Shown: positions 21,950-51,083 of the stretch, piece after piece
Layout: each line of letters opens with the position of its first letter
Numbering within the stretch: position 1 is the stretch's first letter
Source of the DNA: Luminiphilus sp.
Lineage (GTDB): Bacteria > Pseudomonadota > Gammaproteobacteria > Pseudomonadales > Halieaceae
Assembly: GCA_029242325.1 (NCBI GenBank)
Contig: JAQWUD010000038.1
Span: forward strand, 1-64,000
Length of the DNA stretch: 64,000 bases
Direction of reading: 5' to 3'
Notes under the pieces: generated by a model
Told to the model about the DNA's origin: nothing
Databases searched by the model: none
What the model saw: only the letters and a program-made list of their open reading frames with translations
Translations under genes and position numbers: made by a program

Positions 21950-22222
21950 TTAGGACCCACCCGGCTCATCACCTCGAAGCCAGAACACCCAGGCGAGAAT
22001 GACCGCTACGGCGCGATACAGTGATTCGGGAATTTCATCGCCGATTTCCACGCCCATCAAGAGCCTTTGCAGCGCTTCATCCTCGATGACAGGGAGACCA
22101 AGATCAAACGCAGCATCGATAATTGACATTGCCGTCTCACCCTCCCCCTTAGCAACGATACTGGGCGCTTCTCGTTGCCCATACTCAAGGGCTATGGCTT
22201 TGATTTCATCAAGGTCTTTCAT
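21950..22222 (-). CDS. Free FlhB C-terminal domain protein
   Basis: A 90-residue soluble protein that lines up with the part of FlhB after its autocleavage site: AIALEYGQREAPSIVAKGEGETA, LGLPVIEDEALQRLL and IPESLYRAVAVILAWVF match AVALAYDPSSDDPPRVVAKGSD, GVPLFQSPILARAIF and IPESLFEAVAQVIAYIF of the FlhB at 33312-34478. It has no membrane segments and no NPTH/NPEH cleavage motif. Such FlhB-related proteins occur in several flagellated genera and can partly stand in for the FlhB cleavage fragment. It overlaps the preceding FliK-like gene by 4 bases. Confidence 0.87.
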   Translation of the reverse strand: MKDLDEIKAIALEYGQREAPSIVAKGEGETAMSIIDAAFDLGLPVIEDEALQRLLMGVEIGDEIPESLYRAVAVILAWVFWLRGDEPGGS

Positions 22223-23298
22223 ACCGAGGAGTCCAGGCGTTCCCCGATCCGGATGGAGGCCGCAGTGGCCGCTCCAGATCGCGCCGTGTCTCTGGGCTGG
22301 TTAAATACGGCAAAGTGTTCTAGCTGAAGCCCGAATTCGGCGACTTCGGCAACTAACTCAGCGCGGGAATCTCTGGCCCTCATAAACACATCAGCGTCCG
22401 TAAGCCACGCGTCCAGGCGCACTTTTGAGACGGGCTGATGCTCCACCCGCAACCACACGTCAGAGCCCTCTCCAAACTGGGTATACAAATTAATAATCCA
22501 GGGTTGTGCTGCTGGCGGATTCTGCCTGCGTCCCCGCTGCAAATTGAGCTCCACTGGTGCGCCGTTCACCCAAGCCAGAATTTCAGCATTCATAATATCC
22601 GACCGTAAGCCAGTGATCACGCGCTCCTGTCGCGCTTCGATCTCCCCCAAAAGTCCCCTTGCCCGATTCTTGACCGGCGGGTCGCCCGCCAATCCCAAGA
22701 GCCTCATTAAAAGGGACGGCAGCGTAGCCTCCCGAGGCCCGTCCACAACAGAGCTCAGCTGCAAAATGCCTGAACGAGCAAAAAGCTCTCTTGCCCTCGC
22801 AACCTGAGCCTCAATCGCCATAGCGGGATTTAAGGTGATTCCCAGGCTGGCCAATGCAACTGCAATGGGCGCGGGCAGGGTGCGCATCGTCTCAGGAGAC
22901 ATGAGCTGCTGCAGAACCGAGACTGGCGTACCGGACAACTGCACGCTCGGGCTTTGGGTTCCTGGCGCTCCACTGGTCTGCGGCTGGATTGCGGGAGGAG
23001 AAGATGCTGCAACAAGCGGCTTGAGGATCGCGGCGCCGTCAGGCGCGATATGCACTCGGAACGAAACATTTTGACCCAAGTAGCGCTTGAGAATATCAGG
23101 TGCATAAATGGAATGATTCGAGCCGTGAAGGCTGAGATAAAGCTGGCCTCGCTCCATCGAAACAAGGCCCTGAACAACCTGAAAGTTAGTGAGACCAAGC
23201 TGCCTCGGACCCGGCTCGTCTATACGAATTGCCGCCGTCCCCTCAAGAAAAATAGGCGTGGGCCGTACGGAGAGATTCAGTAGCTCAGGACCCAGCAT
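22219..23298 (-). CDS. FliK-like hook-length-control-type protein (second copy)
   Basis: A 359-residue protein with an N-terminal beta-rich part, a Pro/Ala-rich linker (about residues 95-130) and a C-terminal block resembling the FliK substrate-specificity-switch domain (VWLRVEHQPVSKVRLDAWL, then RAELVAEVAEFGLQLEHFAVF). FliK proper is at 38656-40908. The neighbouring free FlhB C-domain makes a FliK/FlhB-like pair. The role could be regulation of the export switch, but this is inferred from domain resemblance. Confidence 0.6.
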   Translation of the reverse strand: MLGPELLNLSVRPTPIFLEGTAAIRIDEPGPRQLGLTNFQVVQGLVSMERGQLYLSLHGSNHSIYAPDILKRYLGQNVSFRVHIAPDGAAILKPLVAASSPPAIQPQTSGAPGTQSPSVQLSGTPVSVLQQLMSPETMRTLPAPIAVALASLGITLNPAMAIEAQVARARELFARSGILQLSSVVDGPREATLPSLLMRLLGLAGDPPVKNRARGLLGEIEARQERVITGLRSDIMNAEILAWVNGAPVELNLQRGRRQNPPAAQPWIINLYTQFGEGSDVWLRVEHQPVSKVRLDAWLTDADVFMRARDSRAELVAEVAEFGLQLEHFAVFNQPRDTARSGAATAASIRIGERLDSSV

Positions 23299-27873: not shown

Positions 27874-28746
27874 ATGCGACTGGTCATAGAAGAAGCCAAA
27901 GATCATACCGAGTGCATGGATAATCTCAGGGCGCGTTATGGCGCCGATTGTGTCGTTGTCCACAGCTTTAAAACGGATGATCGCTATCGCGTCATCATCG
28001 CGCTGGAGGCCCCCTCGTCGCTCAGATCGCCGGCACCGAGAGATCTGCCGATGACGAATATGATGACCCAGCCCAAGAGTTTAAGGTCGACATTCTGGCT
28101 GGAAGATGACCATGACGGCCCAACCCCTGCTAAGAGCGAGGCATTCCGATCCGCATCGCCCGCCGATACGTTTTGGGAAACCGCTCACAGCACCCTCAAC
28201 AACACTCTCAACAATGCCACCCCCAACACCGGCAGCCTCGACAGCAACGCCCTAAAAAGTGATTCGATTCCTGCAGAGATTACAGCGGAGCTGCTGGCGC
28301 TGGCCGCACGCGTCAAGGCGTTGGAATCGGCACAAATCTCCCAAAATTTAGCACCAGAGCCACAAGCCGCCCAATCGATGCTCTTTTCGGATGTTCTGAA
28401 AGACACGGTGGGTGAAGGTGAAAAGGCAAATTCTACTCACACCTCCTTAAGTGCCGGCGTCCCCACTCGCTCAAAAGACGCTCTTAATACCGCAACTTCG
28501 AGCCCGTTCGCGGCCTCGGAAGGAGAAGCAAACCAAAAGATACAGCGCGCGCTAGGAGCGACGAGTTCTGGTAATAAACACTTACCTCTGCCATTAAGCA
28601 ATGTATCATTGGCGGACGAGGCAAGAAGCTTTAACAGTGCCTCCCAAGGCGCTTCTTCGTTTGTCGCCTTGCTGACAGACCACTTAGCGTCGTCGCAGAG
28701 TCGGCATTTCACGCCGCAGCTCGAGATGACCGCAGGGGATCACTGA
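27874..28746 (+). CDS. Truncated FlhF-like protein lacking the GTPase domain
   Basis: It sits exactly where flhF normally sits, between flhA and flhG. Residues 1-47 (MRLVIEEAKDHTECMDNLRA, RYGADCVVVHSFKT, DDRYRVIIALEA) resemble the FlhF B domain. The remaining 240 residues are low-complexity Ser/Thr/Asn/Ala-rich sequence with one helical patch (EITAELLALAARVKALESAQ). No P-loop, DTAG or other SRP-type NG-domain motif follows, and flhG starts 64 bases after the stop. So the polar-placement GTPase activity is absent from this gene. A GGAG ribosome site precedes the ATG. The product could be an adaptor or a relic. Confidence 0.7.
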   Translation: MRLVIEEAKDHTECMDNLRARYGADCVVVHSFKTDDRYRVIIALEAPSSLRSPAPRDLPMTNMMTQPKSLRSTFWLEDDHDGPTPAKSEAFRSASPADTFWETAHSTLNNTLNNATPNTGSLDSNALKSDSIPAEITAELLALAARVKALESAQISQNLAPEPQAAQSMLFSDVLKDTVGEGEKANSTHTSLSAGVPTRSKDALNTATSSPFAASEGEANQKIQRALGATSSGNKHLPLPLSNVSLADEARSFNSASQGASSFVALLTDHLASSQSRHFTPQLEMTAGDH

Positions 28747-28810: not shown

Positions 28811-29596
28811 ATGCGCGTAATCGGAGTGACAAGTGGCAAAGGGGGCGTCGGCAAGACGACCGTCTCTGTCAATTTGGCTGTTGAGCTCGCAAAGCGTGGG
28901 CACAAGGTTGTGCTCCTCGATGGCGATCTGGGTCTTAGCAATGCGCAGATTCTGCTTAACGCTCGGGTCGAATATAGCTATGGCCACGTGCTATCTGGTC
29001 AGAAGTCGCTTGAAGAAATTATGGTGCACTCCGAATACGGTGTGACGCTCGTACCTGGCTCAAGTGGCTCTTCCGCGCTGGCGAGGCTGACACGCCTGCA
29101 ATTGCTCGGTTTAATTCACGCGCTCTCGGCACTGGAAGACTGCGATTTCCTGGTGGTTGATACCGCGGCGGGGATCAGCGATAACGTGACTGTTCTTTTT
29201 GGCGCGTGTGACATCAAACTGCTGCTCATCCAAAACGAGCCTTCATCGATCGCGGATGCCTATGCGACGGTAAAAGTGCTGCAACAGGAATTCAATCTGT
29301 CAGACATCATGCTGACGCCAGTACAGGTGAGTAGCGAGCGAGAGGCTGAGAACATTCACAAGCGTATCAATAAAGTCACGGCGCAGTTTCTTGGATTATC
29401 TCTCGATTATTCAGCCGGCATCCGCAAGGATCCTGCCGTACTCAACTCGGCTCGACTGGGTCAACCAGCTATTTTGCACGCCCCCGAAAGTGATATTGCC
29501 GTTGATATTCGCCGACTGGTCGATGTCATCACTGATGAGCCGAAACGACCCATCGGGTCCAGTGATTTGCGCATTTCAGTGGGCGGCAAGGCTTAA
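28811..29596 (+). CDS. flhG: Flagellar number regulator FlhG (FleN), MinD-like ATPase
   Basis: MinD-family ATPase that limits flagellar number and antagonises FleQ in Pseudomonas. The 261 residues start [20 protein letters not shown] with the deviant Walker A, then [15 protein letters not shown] and [14 protein letters not shown]. There is no N-terminal extension: the only in-frame sequence upstream before a stop has no ATG, GTG or TTG, so the DQAxxLR segment that activates FlhF in other species is missing. This matches the missing GTPase domain in the neighbouring gene. Confidence 0.93.
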
Positions 29597-29598
29597 AG

Positions 29599-30318
29599 AT
29601 GGCTAAGGGCTATCAGGCTTATAACGAAGCGCTGGCGACCTCTCAAGATGGTGGTGCAAGTGCCGACGTTCTGCAGCACATTGGTCTTGTCCATAAGACG
29701 GCGATGCACATCAAGGCTCGACTCCCTGATCATGTGGAGTTGGAGGAATTAGTGCAGATTGGCATGGTAGGGCTACTGGAGGCGGCCAAATCCTACGACG
29801 CGTCTTTGGGAGCAGACCTCAGCACATTCGCCAGTAAAAGGATCCGTGGAGCCATTTTGGACGAGGTGCGAAAGCGCTCCCCCCTATCCAGAACAGACAG
29901 CTCCCATGTAAAAGCCGAAGAACGGATAATAGATCAGTTCCAGGCCGAGACAGGCAGGGTGCCCACGTCGGCGGAGATAGCGAAAAAGCTGGACATCACT
30001 GTCGAGGAGTACCAGCGGCAACGCTCGCGCTCACAGAAATTCCGCACTCAGTCGATTGAAGAGCTCGAAGACAGCGGGCAGGTGCCCGTGTCACCTGATG
30101 CCGGTCCAGAGGTGGAGGTAGCCTCTGGCGAAGCGAGCAAATGGTTGGCAGAAGAGATTACACAGCTACCCGAAAGAGAGCAGCTCGTACTCTCGCTTTA
30201 CTATAACGATGAGATGAATCTTAAAGAAATTGGCGCGATTATAGGCGTGAGCGAATCCCGTGTGAGTCAGATACTGACGAAAGTCGTGACGAAGCTCCGG
30301 GGGCGCGTGTCGTTTTAA
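29599..30318 (+). CDS. fliA: Flagellar sigma factor 28, FliA
   Basis: Directs transcription of late flagellar genes; two matching promoters are visible in this window (flgM and flgP). The 239-residue protein has region 2 (HVELEELVQIGMVGLLEAAK, STFASKRIRGAILDEVRKRS), region 3 (GRVPTSAEIAKKLDI) and region 4 (LPEREQLVLSLYYNDEMNLK, SESRVSQI) in order. ATG follows the flhG stop by 2 bases. Confidence 0.96.
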   Translation: MAKGYQAYNEALATSQDGGASADVLQHIGLVHKTAMHIKARLPDHVELEELVQIGMVGLLEAAKSYDASLGADLSTFASKRIRGAILDEVRKRSPLSRTDSSHVKAEERIIDQFQAETGRVPTSAEIAKKLDITVEEYQRQRSRSQKFRTQSIEELEDSGQVPVSPDAGPEVEVASGEASKWLAEEITQLPEREQLVLSLYYNDEMNLKEIGAIIGVSESRVSQILTKVVTKLRGRVSF

Positions 30319-30334
30319 AGAATAGTGAGTAGCC

Positions 30335-30820
30335 ATGTTTGGGAAAAAATCAAAACTAGAGCGTGTTAAGGCAGATGCAAAGGCTGACTACCTTAAGTGC
30401 GCGTCTCTGAATCCAGAGGATCGACTTCACCGGGTCTTTTCATCACGCATCGCCCAGCGTGCAAGACTGAATCTCGACAAAATTTTTGTACAGGGCGCAA
30501 AAGCCGAGGAGAAGCGTCAGCTGGAGCTCGCTGCTGCGCTAAAAGCGGGGAAGGAATTACTACCGCGCATTGCACACGAGGGCTACAACGAGCTTACTGG
30601 CGTTTCAGGTCGAGTGATTTCGTGGGTGCCGGAAGAACTCGCCAATAAGATGTTTAACCTTGGAGCGGATTATCAAATTCTTGAGATCAGCGCCCTTGAA
30701 GCATTAACGTACGCCGACCAAATTGCAGAACAAGTTGTGGAAGACCTGCAAACCGCACAAACAATTCAACTGCTTAATCTTTTGCGCGAGGTCGATGGCG
30801 AATCAGACAGCTCGGACTGA
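30335..30820 (+). CDS. Uncharacterised soluble helical protein in the flhA-fliA operon
   Basis: I do not recognise this 161-residue protein. It begins with a Lys-rich segment (MFGKKSKLERVKADAKADYL), is predicted to be helical and charged throughout, has no signal peptide or membrane segment, and ends in an acidic DGESDSSD tail. It follows fliA by 16 bases, so it is almost certainly cotranscribed with flhA and fliA. In many polar flagellates chemotaxis genes (cheY, cheZ) follow fliA; this sequence has neither the receiver nor the CheZ signature. A role in flagellar placement or chemotaxis is only an inference from position. Confidence 0.8.
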   Translation: MFGKKSKLERVKADAKADYLKCASLNPEDRLHRVFSSRIAQRARLNLDKIFVQGAKAEEKRQLELAAALKAGKELLPRIAHEGYNELTGVSGRVISWVPEELANKMFNLGADYQILEISALEALTYADQIAEQVVEDLQTAQTIQLLNLLREVDGESDSSD

Positions 30821-30858
30821 CAGCCGAGTTGACACATTAGCACGGAAGAGGAGCATTC

Positions 30859-31476
30859 ATGTCTCTAGAAACCGCGGTGATAACCATGTCGCTCATGCTT
30901 GGTCTGGTCCTGATGATTCTGATTATCTACCTGATCAGCCGGGTCAATGACCTCGAGAGCCGCACCTTCGCCGCACTGTCCCAAACGTCGATGCAGGAAA
31001 CGAAGCAGGAACCCGCCGCCAAAGCGGTCTTTGCCGGTCTTTCCGGGCGCGAACTGTGGGACGAGTGGGTGTCGATTGCCAATGATGGAGACGATCAATA
31101 CTCAATAGCGGGGGACAAAGACCGTTTTCTCGCTTTACTTGAGCTCCATGTTCGCTCCCTCATTAAAACAGGCCGGGAGCATGGGGCCGCGGGCATCTCA
31201 GAACCACCCTCCAACCCGCTCAAAATCAAGATGCTCCGGGGAGAATTTGAGTCCTACCTACCAGGATCACAGGCGGAGCGCCTCTATCAGCTGGGCAAGG
31301 AGTATGGCGCCTCACCCGATGGCGCGAACAACAACGCACTTGCCGCGAGCATTGAAGAGTCGGTTGACAGCGTTGCCATGAGCGTGGATGCGGGCTCGTC
31401 TTTCGTCGAACAAATCATGCGGGACCTGCCCAGCCACCAGGCTCCGGTTACCGAAGCGCTACCAGAGCCTGATTAG
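30859..31476 (+). CDS. Uncharacterised single-pass membrane protein
   Basis: Unrecognised 205-residue protein. One N-terminal membrane segment (about residues 7-27, ITMSLMLGLVLMILIIYLI) is followed by a cytoplasmic part with a DKDRFLALLELHVRSLIKTG helix and a second partly similar helix AERLYQLGKEYGAS. The C-terminal tail is Pro/Glu-rich. A clear AGAGGAG ribosome site lies before the ATG. Last gene of the flhA operon; its stop is only 14 bases from the converging gene at 31491, with no hairpin between them. Confidence 0.8.
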   Translation: MSLETAVITMSLMLGLVLMILIIYLISRVNDLESRTFAALSQTSMQETKQEPAAKAVFAGLSGRELWDEWVSIANDGDDQYSIAGDKDRFLALLELHVRSLIKTGREHGAAGISEPPSNPLKIKMLRGEFESYLPGSQAERLYQLGKEYGASPDGANNNALAASIEESVDSVAMSVDAGSSFVEQIMRDLPSHQAPVTEALPEPD

Positions 31477-31490
31477 CGGGCGAATACTTC

Positions 31491-32300
31491 TTATCGACGC
31501 TTCGCGGGGGGCGGAAAGACGATGGCGTCATCAGGGTAAACCGGCTCAGGCTCAAGCACCACCGGCACATCACCCGACTGACTCAATTGTGCTTGCTCGA
31601 GCGCCAACTGCGCTTCAAACAACTCCGTCAGGTTGTCTCGCTCGATCTGCACCAAGGTCGTCACCTCGGACCGCAACGCGCGGACATCGCCGAGATCTCC
31701 CTCCAAACCCGACACGCGTCTGGCCAGCGCATCCAACTTTTCAGATTGCCCCTCTAGCGTCGCCGCCATGAAGCGCGTTGACTCCGCTCCACTTCTCGTG
31801 ACTTCACTGGCATCATCGATTGTCGTTTGAACCCCCGTCATGGATGACTCAATAGCCAACGCAAGTGTCTTGCCATCCTCGTCCAGCTGGCCGATGGCGG
31901 TCACCAGTTCAGCATGACCTTCATCCAGTGTGCCGAGCTTCTGCTCAAGAATAACCATACGCTCCAGCGCGGAATTCATATTCACAATACGTTTGGTCAT
32001 CGAGAGTGTCGCCGCCTGCAGTGCGTCTACCTGCCCTGCCAACCTGCCGCCAGCAACCAGTAGCAGCACGGCGCAGAGGAACACAACAAATGCTGCTCCA
32101 CCCGCGAGACGCTTGCTGTACAGCTCCATATTCCGGTTGGCTTGACTGGCGGACTGTAACGCCCGCTCGAGCCGGACCTGGTCGTCCGAGCCCAAATTAA
32201 TCAGCGAGGTGACGGCCGCACCCGCGTCAATGGGGTCCGATGCCTGGGCGACCTCAGCCTCCCCTTCCAACGTCTGATCTGGATTGTCTTCTTCTGCCAT
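31491..32300 (-). CDS. Uncharacterised coiled-coil membrane protein at the end of the fli operon
   Basis: Unrecognised 269-residue protein: an acidic N-terminal cytoplasmic part, one membrane helix (about residues 64-88, AGGAAFVVFLCAVLLLVAGG), a long helical, probably coiled-coil, region rich in Leu, Glu and Ala to about residue 240, and a Pro-rich, basic end (PPPAKRR). The architecture recalls periplasmic coiled-coil anchors. I set the start at MAEEDN; the longer frame adds only MRWI. It lies 51 bases downstream of the 306-residue gene and probably belongs to the same operon as flhB. Confidence 0.78.
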   Translation of the reverse strand: MAEEDNPDQTLEGEAEVAQASDPIDAGAAVTSLINLGSDDQVRLERALQSASQANRNMELYSKRLAGGAAFVVFLCAVLLLVAGGRLAGQVDALQAATLSMTKRIVNMNSALERMVILEQKLGTLDEGHAELVTAIGQLDEDGKTLALAIESSMTGVQTTIDDASEVTRSGAESTRFMAATLEGQSEKLDALARRVSGLEGDLGDVRALRSEVTTLVQIERDNLTELFEAQLALEQAQLSQSGDVPVVLEPEPVYPDDAIVFPPPAKRR

Positions 32301-32351
32301 GATCCACCTCACTTGCTCATGGGGTAAATATCGGCACGAGTGCCATTTTGT

Positions 32352-33272
32352 TTAGCGGCTGATTACGCTCATCAAACGGTCATATAGCGGCACCAGAGCA
32401 GCCTCGAGGCTCTCCCACAATGGTGGGTGCAGCGCCCCGGCTACCGCGAGCACGACCAAACCTGCAGTCAACGCAATAAAGACTGCCACCATCGTTGATT
32501 TGATGACGGGCCACCATACCCTGGTCTCGCGCTGAACCACCTCTGACTCTGTCGGCACGGCGGCCGCATCCGCAACAGGCGCCTCCTCCGCTTCCGCTGC
32601 AGCAACGACCTTTTCCTGATAAGCCGAAACACTTTGCACCAGCTCACCCTCTGCCAGCTGCCCGCTGATCTCCATCGCCATCTCGGACCAGCCCGCCTCC
32701 TGCAGCGCAGGTAGCAATGGCGCCAGCTCACCGCGGTGGTGGCACTCAGACAAGTAGACTCTCATGGCCTGTTCGTCCATGAGCCCCAGATGAAGCACTT
32801 TGCTGCGAGACTTGAGGGAGATCTGGCGCAACACCTCTGGATCATGCCCCCCCATAGTGGAGAAGGCTAGGAGCCTCGCATTCGCGCCTGGAAAGGTATT
32901 CACGAGTGATTCACAGGCCACCCATTCCTTGCCGGCACTGGGCCCGAAATCGGGCATCACGATAACGTGCCGCTCATCCGACATTTGGTTGCGCGCCTCC
33001 TCGATACTGAGATCCCCCAAAATGCCATTAAACAGTTCGACTATTTCGTCTGCTTTGGGAGACATCATCCGGTGTAGCGTGAGCCTGGGGTCCTGCTTGA
33101 GCTGCTGGTAAAAAGCCAAAAAACAGGCGTCAAGATGGAAATCCTCATCCGCGAGAATAAATACGTTAACGGCATCAGTGAGCAACGCCTCCCGCGCTAT
33201 TGCCAGCACCTTTTCGTCATCCGGGTGCGGCAATGAGTTCAGATGTGAGTAATCGGAATGTTCCGCACTCAT
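32352..33272 (-). CDS. Uncharacterised protein with C-terminal membrane anchor, downstream of flhB
   Basis: Unrecognised 306-residue protein. Residues 30-200 look like an alpha/beta fold (VNVFILADEDFHLDACFLAF, then HVIVMPDFGP, a hydrophobic strand ending in Asp as in a Walker B), but no Walker A P-loop is present. An Ala/Glu-rich linker (about 225-250) is followed by one membrane helix (STMVAVFIALTAGLVVLAVA) near the C-terminus. It starts 39 bases after the flhB stop. The layout loosely recalls DamX/ExeA-type proteins in reverse polarity; I do not assign a function. Confidence 0.78.
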   Translation of the reverse strand: MSAEHSDYSHLNSLPHPDDEKVLAIAREALLTDAVNVFILADEDFHLDACFLAFYQQLKQDPRLTLHRMMSPKADEIVELFNGILGDLSIEEARNQMSDERHVIVMPDFGPSAGKEWVACESLVNTFPGANARLLAFSTMGGHDPEVLRQISLKSRSKVLHLGLMDEQAMRVYLSECHHRGELAPLLPALQEAGWSEMAMEISGQLAEGELVQSVSAYQEKVVAAAEAEEAPVADAAAVPTESEVVQRETRVWWPVIKSTMVAVFIALTAGLVVLAVAGALHPPLWESLEAALVPLYDRLMSVISR

Positions 33273-33311
33273 GACAGCCTCTCAAATTGCAATGTCAGCG
33301 ATCTGTTTACG

Positions 33312-34478
33312 CTATTGGTCATCAAAAATCATCGTTCTACGACCGTCTGAATCAAAAATCATGTCATCCGGGACTCTGGGATCCGGTTTGGATCGGTTGA
33401 TATGGGCGCGGTTGATGCTGTTGATATTAAAGATGTAAGCGATTACCTGTGCTACCGCCTCAAACAGGGACTCCGGGATGAAGCCCTCCAACTCGGTCGT
33501 AAAGAAGATCGCCCTCGCCAAAATGGGCGACTGGAAGAGCGGCACGCCTTCCTCCGCCGCTCGTTCTCTGATCCGCTCAGCCATAAAGTCGGAGCCCTTC
33601 GCCACCACTCTGGGGGGATCATCCGAAGAGGGATCATAAGCCAGCGCGACTGCGAAGTGCTCGGGGTTAGTGATGACCACGTCCGCCTCGGATATCGCCT
33701 CAAGCATTCTGCCCGCAGATAACTCGCGCTGCTTTTGACGAATACGCTGCTTGATCTCAGGCGACCCGTCCGTCTCCTTGCGTTCGTCTTTCACTTCCTT
33801 GAGAGACATTTTCATTTTTTTATTGTGCGTATAAATCTGATAAGGCGCGTCAATCAGCGCAATTAAAATCAATGTGGCCGAGGCGACTAAAAAAGCGGTG
33901 GTAAGCAATGAGGCAGACGCCGTCAGGCCCGGCTCTAGAGACATCAGTGCGATTTCTCCAAACTCCGGCACTGAAGCCTGTATGAGAAAGAAGGCCACGC
34001 CGCCCACTAGGATAAACTTCACAATCGCTTTCGCGAGCTCTACCAGGCTATTCATCCCGAAAATGCGTTTCAAGCCTGCTATGGGGCTGAGCTTCGAAGC
34101 CTTGGGCTGAATCGCCTTCCAACTAAAATTGTAACCGCCAATCAGCCCGGAACTGATCAACACGACCACCGCCGCCAAAATCAGGATGGGCAAAATTGCA
34201 AACAGCGCCTCGGCCGATGCGTCGCCGAGGCGCGCGACGACGACTTGAGGCTCGGCGACCGCGAGCGGGTCAAAAACAAAACCTCGCGCAAATATATTGG
34301 AGACATTGCCCAGGAGGGAGGCCCCAAATAGGTAGATATAAAGCGCAACACAAATCACTGAGGCTGCAATGGTGATCTCTCTCGAGCGCGCAATTTGACC
34401 CTCTTCCCGCGACTTACTCAGTTTCCGAGCAGTAGGCTCTTCGGTTTTTTCCTGACTGTCGTCCTGTTGATCAGCCAT
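33312..34478 (-). CDS. flhB: Export switch protein FlhB
   Basis: Inner-membrane protein that switches export from hook to filament substrates after autocleavage. The 388 residues start with KTEEPTARKLSKSREEGQIARS and have four membrane segments. The cleavage motif is NPEH (ITNPEHFAVAL) in place of the common NPTH, followed by the C-terminal domain ending IPESLFEAVAQVIAYIF. ATG at 34478-34476 overlaps the fliR stop as TAATG; the longer frame is fliR read-through. NPEH keeps the Asn-Pro cleavage bond and His. Confidence 0.96.
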   Translation of the reverse strand: MADQQDDSQEKTEEPTARKLSKSREEGQIARSREITIAASVICVALYIYLFGASLLGNVSNIFARGFVFDPLAVAEPQVVVARLGDASAEALFAILPILILAAVVVLISSGLIGGYNFSWKAIQPKASKLSPIAGLKRIFGMNSLVELAKAIVKFILVGGVAFFLIQASVPEFGEIALMSLEPGLTASASLLTTAFLVASATLILIALIDAPYQIYTHNKKMKMSLKEVKDERKETDGSPEIKQRIRQKQRELSAGRMLEAISEADVVITNPEHFAVALAYDPSSDDPPRVVAKGSDFMAERIRERAAEEGVPLFQSPILARAIFFTTELEGFIPESLFEAVAQVIAYIFNINSINRAHINRSKPDPRVPDDMIFDSDGRRTMIFDDQ

Positions 34479-35248
34479 TAGGGCACCATCCACATTGATT
34501 GGGCTGTATCGAACGCCTCCAACCATATCCATTCAATGCGATGACCAATATTTGCCATGTAGACAACAATAAGGATCATCCCCGTGAGCACCATAGCGGG
34601 AAAGCCGACCGCAAAAATGTTGAGTGCAGGAGCTGCTCTGGTCACAATTCCGATACAAAGATTAATCAACATCATCGTAAGCATGATGGGTAGCGCCACC
34701 AGCACCGCACCCAAAAAAGCCATTGCTGTCCAGTCAATGACGTTGGCAATCGTCTCCTTCACGAGAATGGCTCCGCCGATGGGGAGCACCTCAAAGCTCT
34801 GAAGAATCAACTTGATCATGATCAAGTGTCCGCCCACAGAGAGAAAAATGAGTGTGGATAACACCACGAGAAAAGACGAGATAACAGGCACCTGCGCCGC
34901 GTTAGGATCAATGGTTTGTGCCATCCCCAACGACATACTCATGGACATTGTCTGTCCAGCTATTACCATGGCCGCATTCACCACCTGAAGTACGACCGCA
35001 AATAGGATCCCAATAAACAACTCCCAGGTAATCAGGCGAATCCCTGCTGCACTCGCAGCATCGATGACAGGTAAATCCAGCGTCGGGTAGATAAAGATAG
35101 TGAGCACTAGGGCGAGAGCAATACGGATACGGACCGACACCACTCTCAGCGACACTAGCGGTGCAGCCATTAAAAGCGCAGAAATCCTGAGAAAAGGGAT
35201 CAACCCGGTGATGAGGATCTGTAAAAGATCATCAAGAATTAGGTTCAT
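34478..35248 (-). CDS. fliR: Export gate protein FliR
   Basis: Component of the FliP5-FliQ4-FliR1 export channel. It is 256 residues and very hydrophobic, with several membrane segments and the FliR pattern FLRISALLMAAPLVSLRVVSVRIR near the start (read as two segments), and TMSMSMSLGMAQTIDPNAA near residue 110. It overlaps fliQ by 4 bases at its start and flhB by 1 base at its end. Confidence 0.95.
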   Translation of the reverse strand: MNLILDDLLQILITGLIPFLRISALLMAAPLVSLRVVSVRIRIALALVLTIFIYPTLDLPVIDAASAAGIRLITWELFIGILFAVVLQVVNAAMVIAGQTMSMSMSLGMAQTIDPNAAQVPVISSFLVVLSTLIFLSVGGHLIMIKLILQSFEVLPIGGAILVKETIANVIDWTAMAFLGAVLVALPIMLTMMLINLCIGIVTRAAPALNIFAVGFPAMVLTGMILIVVYMANIGHRIEWIWLEAFDTAQSMWMVP

Positions 35249-46539: not shown

Positions 46540-46869
46540 TTACACCGGCATGCTCATTACATCCTGATAAGCTTTTAGAATCTTGTTTCTCACCTGAAGC
46601 GTTGCCTCAAAGGCGACCGACGCACGCTGCGAATCAACCAGCACGTCTGTAACGCTGATGTCGCCGTTCACCTCGTATTGCGCTTTTGTATCGGCTGCCC
46701 TCATCTGGGTGTCGTTCACTGAACGTATTGCCGCGAGCAGATCCGACGCAAAGCGACCCTGCGGCTGCTCATTGCTGATTGCGAGCGACGACTCGCTGAA
46801 TTTGCTGTTGGCCATCTCGGCCTGGCGAATCACATTCATTACGCCCTGCATGCTTGTCTTATCGATCAT
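46540..46869 (-). CDS. fliE: MS-ring/rod junction protein FliE
   Basis: Connects FliF to the rod. It is 109 residues, all helical, with the conserved C-terminal half (SFASDLLAAIRSVNDTQMRA with slight variation, DVLVDSQRASVAFEATLQVR). Its ATG overlaps the stop of the FlrC-like gene by 4 bases (ATGA), so fliE is translated in the same transcript as its activator. Confidence 0.95.
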   Translation of the reverse strand: MIDKTSMQGVMNVIRQAEMANSKFSESSLAISNEQPQGRFASDLLAAIRSVNDTQMRAADTKAQYEVNGDISVTDVLVDSQRASVAFEATLQVRNKILKAYQDVMSMPV

Positions 46870-48344
46870 GAGTTACCCACCGATTGATAGGCTTCTTCTT
46901 CAGAGGCCTTCCATTTCTGCAATTTGTGTCGGAGCGTTCTCGGGCTGATACCCAGACGCTCAGCCGCTTCTTTCTTTGAGGTGCTTTCCTCCAGCGCCGC
47001 GCGAATGAGCTGCCACTCTGCCTGTTCCTTGACGGACATGAGGTCTTGCTCCACTGCGCCGCCCTTGGCAGGCACGGCCTGAGCAAAAGGCGACGGTGCG
47101 GGTGCCTGATCAGCGGCGCTACCCGGCCGCGTTTCGATCTGCAACGCGTCGAGAAATATATGCTCCGCACCGATTACGCCATCTGCGGCCAGCACTTTTG
47201 CTCGGCAGATGACATTGTCGAGCTCCCTTACGTTGCCAGGCCAGTTATGAAGACGGAGCTGCTGTATGGCATCCTCGCGAATCTTCATGGCGACACCGGC
47301 GACCTGATCGGATTCTGCGAAGGCAATTGCCAGCTGCTCAATATCGCCGGGACGATCGCACAGTCGCGGTATGCCAATGTGAAACGCATTGAGGCGGTAG
47401 AGGAGATCCTCACGGAACTGACCGCGCGCGACCATATCGACCAAGTCACGGTTGGTCGCTGCGACCAACCGCACATCAAAACTCACTTCGCGGGTGCTCC
47501 CAATGCGAGCCGCTTTGCGCTCCTGAATGACCCTCAGCAACTTCGGCTGAACGTGCAGCGGCAATTCACCCACCTCGTCGAGGAACAGCGTGCCCTGATT
47601 GGCATCCTCAAAAATACCGGGTTGGTCCTTGATCGCGCCAGTGAAGGAACCTTTCACATGTCCAAATAAAATGCTTTCGACCAGATGCTCAGGCATCGCC
47701 GAGCAATTCAGCGCGATAAAAGGGCCTGAAGACCGGGGCGATGCGTTGTGGAGAATCTGCGCAACCACCTCTTTGCCCACGCCCGAAGGTCCGGAAAGGA
47801 GTGCCGTTACATCAACCTGTGCAACCCGCTCGACCAATGACAGCATCGCCTTACTCGCGGGATCAGCAAACACTACCGTGCGCCGAGCAGGCTTTCGCTT
47901 GGCTGACCGGCCCTTGGATGATTCATTCGCAGGGGTATTCATCGCCGCGATACTGTGCCAAGCATCGATAGCGGCAGCGAAAGCAATACACCAATCTTCG
48001 CCGGTGGCACTGGTATAGGTCTGCACTGCCGGTGTGCCCATTCGGCCGAGGAAGTGCCCAAGAGCGACGTCACCCTCGGGAACGAGCGCGACAAAGGGCC
48101 CGCTAATGGCTTCCACGCTTTGCTGCAAATGTTGTGCGACGGGCTGCCAATCAGCGCCGACCACCAGACACGACACCGCTTCGGGCACCATGCGCTCGGC
48201 AAAGGATTCGGGAGCTTGGGTAATCGTTACAGGCACATCCAGCGCCAGCCGAGACAGTGCCTGTTCAGGAACGCCGCTCTCACGAACGACCATAATATTG
48301 AGGTGCACTTCCGCCACAGAACTTGCCACAAACACTGCCCGCAT
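46866..48344 (-). CDS. FlrC/FleR-like sigma54 activator with atypical N-terminus
   Basis: AAA+ sigma54 activator of the class that turns on hook and basal-body genes. The central domain shows Walker A GPSGVGKEV, the sigma54 loop as GSFTGA in place of GAFTGA, Walker B TLFLDEVGEL and the arginine-finger region FREDLLYRLNAFHIGIPRL; a Fis-type helix-turn-helix follows at the end (KKEAAERLGISPRTLRHKLQ). The N-terminal 140 residues are not a clear receiver: I find no conserved phospho-acceptor Asp in a D-x-x-M/L-P context. Start ATG 48344 fits the predicted sigma54 transcript; ATG 48359 would lie upstream of it. Confidence 0.88.
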   Translation of the reverse strand: MRAVFVASSVAEVHLNIMVVRESGVPEQALSRLALDVPVTITQAPESFAERMVPEAVSCLVVGADWQPVAQHLQQSVEAISGPFVALVPEGDVALGHFLGRMGTPAVQTYTSATGEDWCIAFAAAIDAWHSIAAMNTPANESSKGRSAKRKPARRTVVFADPASKAMLSLVERVAQVDVTALLSGPSGVGKEVVAQILHNASPRSSGPFIALNCSAMPEHLVESILFGHVKGSFTGAIKDQPGIFEDANQGTLFLDEVGELPLHVQPKLLRVIQERKAARIGSTREVSFDVRLVAATNRDLVDMVARGQFREDLLYRLNAFHIGIPRLCDRPGDIEQLAIAFAESDQVAGVAMKIREDAIQQLRLHNWPGNVRELDNVICRAKVLAADGVIGAEHIFLDALQIETRPGSAADQAPAPSPFAQAVPAKGGAVEQDLMSVKEQAEWQLIRAALEESTSKKEAAERLGISPRTLRHKLQKWKASEEEAYQSVGNS

Positions 48345-48364
48345 TACTTTAGGTCTCAAACAGT

Positions 48365-48479: not shown

Positions 48480-49580
48480 TCAGGTTTTTGTGATCTTCAG
48501 ACGGCCCATTTTTTCAATCAGAGTAGTACGTTTCACACTCAGAGTTCTGGCTGCCTCGGAAATATTGCCATTGGCGTCAGCCAGTGCCTTCTCTATCAAT
48601 TCTCTCTCGAAGTGGGCCAACCGGGCCTTTAAGGTGGCCTCAGTCAGCTCGATGTGGGGGGGCGCCTCTGCTGAGGTAATGCCCAACACACGGCCAATGC
48701 CGTCCTCGTCGTCATCATCTGGAGCAAGCAGGGCGTCTGTTGCATCCATTTGAAAAGAGGTTGGCAACGTGTCGCTGACCTGAGATGCGGCATCCTCAGC
48801 GAGCATGCGGGCCATTTGCGGCGGCAGGAAAGCCTGAGGCAAGGCATACAGATCGATCTTTTCGCCCGGAAACAGCGCGGTAAGGCGACGGCAAAAGTTT
48901 TCCACCTCACGCACATTACCGGGCCATCGATAGGCTTGAAGCAGGCTCACCGATTTTGCGTTGAGCTTGACCGGATCGCCTTGCACGGCATAACCATCGG
49001 AAAAATAATCAAAGAGCTCAATAATCTCTTCGGGGCGCTCTCTCAGAGGGGGGATGGTAATTGGAATAACATTCAGCCGAAAAAACAGATCCTCCCTGAA
49101 CTTTCCTGAATCAATCAACGCTTCCAGCGGCTTATGGGTCGCAGAAATGACCCGTACATCAACGTCAACTTCTTCCACTGCGCCTACGGGGGTGACCACG
49201 CCCTCCTGAATCGCTCTCAGCAGCTTTGCCTGAAGCTCCGAGGGCATGTCACCAATCTCATCGAGCAACAATGAGCCGCCATCGGCCAGTCGCATTCTCC
49301 CGGGATAGCTGGTTACTGCACCCGAGAAAGCCCCTTTCTCATGCCCAAATAGCTCACTTTCCAGCAATTCAGTGGGAATCGCGCTGCAATTGACCGCTAC
49401 AAACTTGCCTGCATTGTCCCGACCCGACAAGCGGTGAATCTCGCGCGCGATCACTTCTTTACCCACCCCGGTAGCACCACGAATCAGGATAGGTGCATCC
49501 GAGGGCGCCACCCTCTCAATGTAAGAAAGCAACTCCTGCGTGACGGCGCTGCCGCCCACAAAACGTTGGTGGCCTTTCAT
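48480..49580 (-). CDS. FleQ/FlrA-like sigma54 activator lacking the N-terminal domain
   Basis: Likely master activator of the flagellar cascade. The 366 residues begin almost at the AAA+ domain: RFVGGSAVTQELLSYIERVA, Walker A GATGVGKEVIA, loop GAFSGA (canonical GAFTGA), Walker B SLLLDEIGDMP, FREDLFFRLNVIPITIPPLR, and a C-terminal FleQ-like helix-turn-helix (NISEAARTLSVKRTTLIEKM). The FleQ N-terminal receiver-like domain is missing, and an in-frame TGA ten codons upstream rules out a missed start. It follows the 121-residue gene by 20 bases. Confidence 0.87.
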   Translation of the reverse strand: MKGHQRFVGGSAVTQELLSYIERVAPSDAPILIRGATGVGKEVIAREIHRLSGRDNAGKFVAVNCSAIPTELLESELFGHEKGAFSGAVTSYPGRMRLADGGSLLLDEIGDMPSELQAKLLRAIQEGVVTPVGAVEEVDVDVRVISATHKPLEALIDSGKFREDLFFRLNVIPITIPPLRERPEEIIELFDYFSDGYAVQGDPVKLNAKSVSLLQAYRWPGNVREVENFCRRLTALFPGEKIDLYALPQAFLPPQMARMLAEDAASQVSDTLPTSFQMDATDALLAPDDDDEDGIGRVLGITSAEAPPHIELTEATLKARLAHFERELIEKALADANGNISEAARTLSVKRTTLIEKMGRLKITKT

Positions 49581-50138: not shown

Positions 50139-51083
50139 TTGCCTTTATTCACAAGCCATAGGTACCCCACATTGAATAGCCGCCAGTACATTGGTTCACT
50201 TTTCGAGAGATCATCAGAACATAAAGTCGCTGCCCGCAGGCTCAACACGTTTCTGTTCTTTCTGATCATCCTGAGTCTTGCGGCGATTACGCTGGAGTCC
50301 GTTGCCTCCATCGAGGCCGAGTGGTCTTCAGAGCTGCTGATATTCGAGTTCATCTCTGTAATCTTCTTCTCGATCGAATACGGTTTGAGGATTTGGTCTG
50401 CGCCCGACAATGGTGATCTGCCGGGAAACACCGCGCTGCGAAAGCGACTCAACTATATTTTCAGCTTCACTGGGCTAATCGATCTGATTGCTATACTGCC
50501 CACACTGCTTCAATTCATATGGGTCGGTGCAGACCTGAGGCTACTTCGCGTCATGCGGCTGGCGCGGCTGCTGAAGCTGAGCCACTTCACCACAGCGCTG
50601 GAGGATCTAGTCTCGGCCGTACACTCGGAGCGGCAAGCCTTCGGGGCCGCACTCTATCTCATGGTCGTCGCGCTATTTTTATCGAGCTCTCTAATTTACG
50701 TCGCGGAAAGAGACGCACAACCCGAGGCTTTCCCATCGATTCCTGAGACGATGTGGTGGGCGATCGTGACCCTCACGACTGTCGGTTATGGAGATGTATC
50801 TCCCGTCACAGCGGGAGGCAAAATCATTGGCGCGATGACCGCCATGATGGGCGTCTGTACCGTGGCACTGCTGACAGGCATTGTCGGGGCCGGATTTTCG
50901 AAGCAAATGTCAAAGCAATACGCAGAATTTGAGGCAAAAGTCCGCGATGCTTTGGAGGATGGCATCATCTCAAACGACGAAGCAAAAGAACTCGAAGCCT
51001 TGCGAGAACGGCTAGGGCTGTCTAAAACCCAGGCAGACGAGCTGGCTCATCATCTGATAGAAACCCGACGCGCCAAGCTGTAA
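50139..51083 (+). CDS. Voltage-gated-type potassium channel
   Basis: Six-helix ion channel of 314 residues. S1-S4 lie in the first 170 residues; S4 carries the spaced arginines DLRLLRVMRLARLLKL. The pore helix and selectivity filter read TMWWAIVTLTTVGYGDVSPV, which makes it K+ selective. A cytoplasmic helical tail follows the last membrane helix (KVRDALEDGIISNDEAKELE). The start at TTG 50139 is uncertain; another TTG lies 11 codons on. Not obviously connected to the flagellar genes. Confidence 0.9.
   Translation: MPLFTSHRYPTLNSRQYIGSLFERSSEHKVAARRLNTFLFFLIILSLAAITLESVASIEAEWSSELLIFEFISVIFFSIEYGLRIWSAPDNGDLPGNTALRKRLNYIFSFTGLIDLIAILPTLLQFIWVGADLRLLRVMRLARLLKLSHFTTALEDLVSAVHSERQAFGAALYLMVVALFLSSSLIYVAERDAQPEAFPSIPETMWWAIVTLTTVGYGDVSPVTAGGKIIGAMTAMMGVCTVALLTGIVGAGFSKQMSKQYAEFEAKVRDALEDGIISNDEAKELEALRERLGLSKTQADELAHHLIETRRAKL

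Follow-up and report, generated by a model that had tools for sequence, protein, structure and literature searches.

The window analysed here is a stretch of 64,000 nucleotides from Luminiphilus sp. (Halieaceae; contig JAQWUD010000038.1), in which four adjoining open reading frames lie between two groups of flagellar genes. These are labelled X1 and X2 (after fliA) and X3 and X4 (after flhB) and are together called the module. A preliminary description of the DNA had placed four uncharacterised genes of 161, 205, 306 and 269 residues here, with 14 bases between the facing stops, and these places, sizes and the spacing (31477-31490, between X2 and X3) were confirmed. The genes and their flagellar neighbours are listed below.

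30335..30820, plus strand: X1, 161 residues, predicted soluble, from the list of open reading frames
30859..31476, plus strand: X2, 205 residues, predicted N-terminal membrane anchor and X1-like domain
31491..32300, minus strand: X3, 269 residues from ATG, or 273 residues from GTG at 32312
32352..33272, minus strand: X4, 306 residues, predicted AAA+-like domain without Walker A, then one membrane segment
25732..27867, plus strand: flhA of the module-bearing lineage (TIGR01398 over cut-off; lineage from a tree)
27874..28746, plus strand: short flhF, 290 residues, TIGR03499 positions 1-144 only, without GTPase
28811..29596, plus strand: flhG (MinD/ParA type), which begins at the P-loop
29599..30318, plus strand: fliA (NF005413 and TIGR02479 over cut-off)
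33312..34532, minus strand: flhB, upstream of X4 (TIGR00328 over cut-off)

On the plus strand X1 is preceded by flhA, the short flhF, flhG and fliA, with 16 bases between fliA and X1. On the minus strand X4 lies 39 bases past flhB, which is accompanied by more flagellar genes as far as fliF; fliR, fliQ, fliP, fliO, fliN, fliM, fliL and others were assigned by look and order, not by search. Terminator and promoter scans of 30200-33500 gave nothing above chance. All four genes are under purifying selection, with ratios of nonsynonymous to synonymous substitution rates (dN/dS) of 0.035-0.267 in three pairs per gene. Because of this selection and the same placement in relatives, X1-X4 are more than chance reading frames.

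The distribution of the genes was determined in 58 relatives (the window's own genome included) and in 390 genomes of the order, whose families are denoted f1 (the Halieaceae group), f15 (OM252/Litorivicinus type), f40, f41 and f44. Among the 58 relatives X4 was found in 8, X2 in 9 and FlhA in 38; the ninth X2 match (G016) was weak (E-value 4.8e-4, 79 residues inside an 805-codon frame). Among the 390 genomes X1 was found in 26 and FlhA in 287, while X4 occurred in 19 and was confined to f1, f15 and f41. In a class-wide sample of 369 genomes, a wide X1 profile matched the window's own genome and no other. Among the FlhA matches listed, 24 of the 26 genomes with an FlhA at least 56% identical to that of the window carried X1, the threshold having been chosen after seeing the list. 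The two X1-less genomes were G236, whose contig stops about 200 bases past fliA, and G418; two further X1 carriers, G322 and G357, lay outside this set, with flhA broken into two frames or missing on a short contig. In a tree of 46 FlhA proteins, 24 module clusters stood on one side of a branch with 100/100 support, and eight module-free congeners with 14 other proteins on the other side; the program warned of long branches meeting. X1-X4 are thus not genes found mainly in genomes without flagella, since X1 tracks one FlhA lineage, and the four genes are co-inherited with one flagellar type across several families of the order. Two distinct types of flagellum thus occur within the window's genus, a sign that a whole cluster was probably transferred or replaced.

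In f1, f15 and f41 the module separates the flhB operon from the flhA operon, and in f44 it does so in part. Genomes of f15 and f41 have flhB-X4-Y-X3 facing X2-X1-fliA-flhG-flhF-flhA, where Y is a small extra gene. The Y genes are alike by BLAST within f15; in f41 a small reading frame occupies the same slot, with likeness by position alone, and Y was not found in the window's lineage. X1 and then X2 directly after fliA is the arrangement kept in f15, f41 and f44. Three of the four f44 clusters have X1, X2 and X3, and the fourth (G388) has X1 and X2. In G418 (L186 10030-13472) X3 and X4 are kept, X1 and X2 are missing together, and X3 ends 38 bases from fliA.

A second X1 paralogue was seen away from the flhA operon in OM252-type genomes (a second match in 7 f15 genomes), at L158 9544-10959, L159 9598-10964, L160 9789-11177 and L161 9344-10688. 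It adjoins a gene of 271-290 residues in all four stretches, and the three of these four neighbours that were scanned had no Pfam match.

None of the four proteins (0/4) reached a Pfam or NCBIfam cut-off, in agreement with the earlier description, which recognised no flagellar or chemotaxis family in them. Searches of Pfam, NCBIfam and PDB sequences, the last with profiles, gave no believable match for X1 or X2. The AlphaFold2 model of X1 (predicted local distance difference test score, pLDDT, 89.6; predicted template modelling score, pTM, 0.84) consists of a helix, a long helix at residues 30-71, a beta hairpin and two helices; no membrane segment was found in X1 by hydropathy scan, and one fold search of the PDB with the model gave no match at E≤0.001. 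X2 has one clear membrane segment at residues 8-26 by the same scan. Compared with hhalign, X1 and X2 matched with a probability of 95.4 (E 1.7e-8, 112 columns) using wide alignments and 78.7 (E 1.7e-5) using narrower ones, and by this profile similarity they are paralogues. They appear to form a new protein family; the fold of X1, predicted with confidence, had no solved counterpart in that one fold search.

The X1 profile also resembled both halves of dinoflagellate peridinin-chlorophyll protein at the same place, probably by chance. As an identity for X1 this protein was rejected: the whole-sequence E-value of 1e-4 sums two repeats with per-domain values of 0.41 and 5.6, and the protein is absent among the 50 fold matches listed for X1.

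The single membrane anchors described for three of the four proteins were recovered by hydropathy scan in X2, X3 and X4, and the long helical or coiled-coil parts described for two would correspond to the long helix predicted in X1 and to X3. In X3 the membrane segment (residues 65-83) is followed by a conserved helical, coiled-coil-like part in an alignment of 18 proteins; the coiled-coil matches were weak (SpiroCoCo E 0.0011, SMC E 0.0055), and there was no believable family match in Pfam or NCBIfam. In X4 the membrane segment is at 261-279; a second, marginal peak (22-40) falls within the domain predicted to be folded. The AlphaFold2 model of X4 (pLDDT 76.0, pTM 0.58) had a best Foldseek E-value of 5.1e-5, and among the matches listed 42 were at E≤0.001, mostly AAA+ proteins; TM-scores were modest, at 0.27-0.41 of the query in the 50 rows listed. 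Judged by this model, the N-terminal domain of X4 is AAA+-like. A Walker A motif was found in 0/18 aligned X4 rows. All 10 X4 proteins scanned from f15 and f41 matched SPOR at the C-terminus (E 1.9e-5 to 0.14; four of them at or over the Pfam cut-off), and none of the eight from the window's Halieaceae group (f1) did. No strong match to a characterised family was thus seen by sequence, the nearest features being the AAA+-like fold of X4 and the SPOR domain of its relatives.

The absence of the FlhF GTPase, already noted in the preliminary description, was upheld. The window's FlhF of 290 residues matched TIGR03499 over model positions 1-144 only (E 3.4e-5) and gave no match to PF00448, the GTPase (NG) domain of signal recognition particle (SRP) type. 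SRP-GTPase matches numbered two in the assembly (2.76 Mb, 51 contigs, 96.5% complete); their frames, 359 and 555 codons long, have the sizes of FtsY and Ffh, and neither lies at flhF. In ten short FlhFs (216-290 residues, the window's included; window's numbering) conservation is higher at residues 1-45, which form the longest well conserved stretch, and at about 136-180 and about 256-285 within an otherwise variable linker. For Shewanella, PMC11236974 describes that FlhF binds FliG through its first 44 residues and HubP through the NG domain. By sequence correspondence, the short FlhF keeps the part equivalent to this FliG-binding domain; it has no NG domain and therefore no HubP/FimV-binding half. 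Since its dN/dS values (0.36, 0.21 and 0.22 in three pairs) indicate purifying selection, the short FlhF is not a decaying remnant. The FimV C-terminal domain is encoded in 22 of 23 module genomes and is still present in the window's lineage. PMC12713375 reports that in P. aeruginosa the GTPase domain is important for bringing FlhF to the pole.

The earlier linkage of the four genes with the missing FlhF GTPase, as a replacement for it, was not supported. FlhF beside the module has 411-434 residues in f15, f41 and f44; in the f40 clusters it has 416 and 425 residues in two and 295 in the third, and in G418 it has 408. The idea that the module arose with FlhF truncation was rejected on the full-length FlhF of f15, f41 and f44; the module predates the truncation and therefore did not originate as a substitute for the GTPase. 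When FlhF proteins were aligned, the TKxD-type motif was kept in 5/6 f15 proteins and altered in 6/6 from f41, 3/3 from module-bearing f44 and 3/3 from f40; the lysine-to-arginine form occurred in f44, in part of f40 and also in one of the six conventional FlhFs included. The activator N-terminus of FlhG carries the motif DQAxxLR. Its loss together with FlhF truncation was rejected as well, since among the 30 module clusters listed the motif was seen by eye neither with short nor with long FlhF.

FipA (DUF2802, PF10975), a membrane partner of FlhF, is described in PMC11620751 as an N-terminal transmembrane segment followed by a cytoplasmic domain, encoded downstream of the flhA-flhF-flhG-fliA operon. 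We infer, tentatively and at somewhat less than an even chance, that X1-X4 are a placement or initiation module anchored in the membrane, similar in action to FipA but not homologous to it. In favour are the constant position of the module between the two operons, the bond of X1 to one FlhA lineage, the paralogy of X1 and X2 and their joint absence in G418, and the FipA-like layout and gene position of X2. DUF2802 was found in 1/23 module genomes, there in the module-free cluster of G388, against 9/13 flagellated genomes of other families, which also favours this reading. So do the SPOR domain of X4 in f15 and f41, the retained and selected FliG-binding part of the short FlhF, the FimV C-terminus in 22 of 23 module genomes and the evidence of a polar flagellum in the carrier LSUCC0096. 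As one lineage-specific module, X1-X4 would help to fix where and when the basal body starts. X2 would be anchored in the inner membrane, its X1-like domain facing the cytoplasm, and would pair with soluble X1; the two would do the job of FipA by binding FlhF or FliG and keeping FlhF-bound FliG where assembly takes place. X4 and X3 would span the membrane, the AAA+-like domain of X4 serving as a scaffold independent of a Walker A motif. In the ancestral X4 a periplasmic SPOR domain may recognise division-derived peptidoglycan at the new pole, and polar localisation of the module would be expected. The window's lineage would represent a reduced system, with X4 lacking SPOR, Y not found and FlhF consisting of the FliG-binding part and short linker motifs; the pole end of the tether would therefore come from other proteins (X1-X4, FimV or both). 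A more specific version seems rather unlikely to hold in full: a second route of pole recruitment, without FipA, in which X2, X1 and a SPOR-bearing AAA+ pseudo-ATPase X4 that senses division-derived peptidoglycan at the new pole capture FliG through FlhF, and which in the window's lineage allowed FlhF to shrink to a GTPase-free FliG tether, so that placement proceeds without the FlhF GTPase.

Of the earlier suggestion that these genes form an alternative polar-placement or flagellar-control module, it is supported that they are uncharacterised, tied to flagella and reasonable candidates; that they replace the missing FlhF GTPase is not supported. No paper on X1-X4 was recognisable from the titles and abstracts searched, most subscription journals lying outside the search. 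Four co-inherited genes occupy operon slots where placement genes sit, and the locus offers a natural experiment on flagellar siting without the FlhF GTPase, with an FlhF whose conservation is limited to the FliG-binding part and linker motifs, with the landmark FimV and with no FipA found. LSUCC0096 (G050), a cultured strain, carries the module, and PMC8269220 gives evidence of a polar flagellum in it, so that the question is testable. New factors that give FlhF spatial specificity where known landmarks are lacking are called for in a review (PMC12826062).

Several observations weigh against a FipA-like placement module. X4 of the window's own lineage lacks the SPOR domain, which is the strongest connection to the pole. 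X4 was unmatched in the f44 clusters (0/4; L146 ends inside X3), f40 shows X1 alone of the module (3/3 clusters), and G418 retains flagellar genes and a full FlhF without X1 and X2. The P-loop lysine is lost from FlhF of module-free congeners, in three of the five included (G006, G017 and G030, that is L088, L089 and L091), so FlhF erosion is not peculiar to module-bearing genomes, and loss of the GTPase may be widespread among these marine bacteria. Homology of X1 or X2 to FipA was rejected: four hhalign comparisons with a FipA alignment gave probabilities of 0.3-6.9, and X1 and X2 did no better than the control (X3 versus FipA, 1.1) except for a match of the transmembrane segment only. In X2, PF10975 had no match at E≤1. 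DUF2802 is missing as well from the module-free flagellated congeners (found in 0/9). Lack of FipA therefore does not require the module, and because congeners with neither exist the parallel between X2 and FipA is incomplete.

Two other explanations fit much of the same anatomy. The first is that the module is a motor accessory, X3 and X4 forming a periplasmic scaffold for disc or stator support and X1-X2 sitting on the cytoplasmic motor face, with position set elsewhere. This would suit the membrane-anchored X3 with its long conserved helical part, the membrane segment of X4 with its peptidoglycan-type SPOR domain in relatives, and the strict binding of the module to one flagellar type. However, the folded part of two of the four proteins is presumed to face the cytoplasm, the genes of these two accompany flhF, flhG and fliA and not stator or ring genes, and the periplasmic domain of X4 is lost in f1; we consider a motor accessory rather unlikely. 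The second is an export or expression checkpoint, X1-X2 acting on FliA, FlhA or FlhB (for example as a chaperone, export gate partner or sigma-factor control) and X4-X3 on the FlhB side. The short distances from fliA to X1 and from flhB to X4 speak for it, as do the small, soluble and helical nature of X1 and its retention after fliA in f40, where no X2-X4 were recognised. SPOR and membrane anchors are nevertheless unexpected for such control, and the Pfam and NCBIfam searches showed no likeness to FlgM or to export chaperones, so that a checkpoint appears doubtful. That the genes are mere passengers filling the gap between two flagellar operons is very improbable: the gap does admit other genes (in f40 X1 is followed by nitronate monooxygenase or exonuclease VII, and in f44 an RTX-repeat protein lies beyond X3), but order and orientation of the module are constant down to 17-32% identity, the samples yielded none of it beyond this flagellar lineage, and X1-X4 are under purifying selection.

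Elsewhere in the window, two neighbouring sigma-54 activators (46869-48359 and 48483-49580, both minus strand) lie at the upstream end of the fli genes, and an ion-channel gene (Ion_trans, E 6.9e-31; 50139-51080, plus strand) adjoins the flagellar cluster. At 21950-23298 on the minus strand, a 90-residue frame that looks like a C-terminal fragment of FlhB accompanies a 359-residue frame without Pfam match, and this pair recurs beside the flhA operon in many module clusters. No tRNA was found in the window.

Compared with known systems, a placement module of X1-X4 would be closest to FipA in place and layout, not in descent. X2 has a short N-terminus, one transmembrane segment and, in its presumed orientation, a cytoplasmic domain, and its gene also lies downstream of the flhA-flhF-flhG-fliA operon. 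It differs from FipA in having no sequence or profile similarity to it and in being accompanied by the soluble paralogue X1 and by X3 and X4. G388 has two flagellar clusters (L148 and L188): the module stretch shows no FipA, and in the second cluster fliA is followed directly by FipA, with module genes missing. DamX consists of an AAA-like domain, a transmembrane segment and SPOR. Compared by this layout, X4 of f15 and f41 has a similar predicted domain order (AAA+-like without Walker A, transmembrane segment, SPOR), but it is encoded in a flagellar cluster, and the window's X4 is without SPOR. The short FlhF resembles FlhF, the SRP-type GTPase of polar flagella, in keeping the N-terminal FliG-interaction part described in PMC11236974 and the operon place, and differs in lacking the NG/GTPase domain. 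MotV and MotW, described in PMC8789113 as HubP-dependent polar motility proteins of Vibrio, are by that description like X2-X4 membrane proteins of a limited set of polarly flagellated bacteria, a likeness of kind with no relation claimed.

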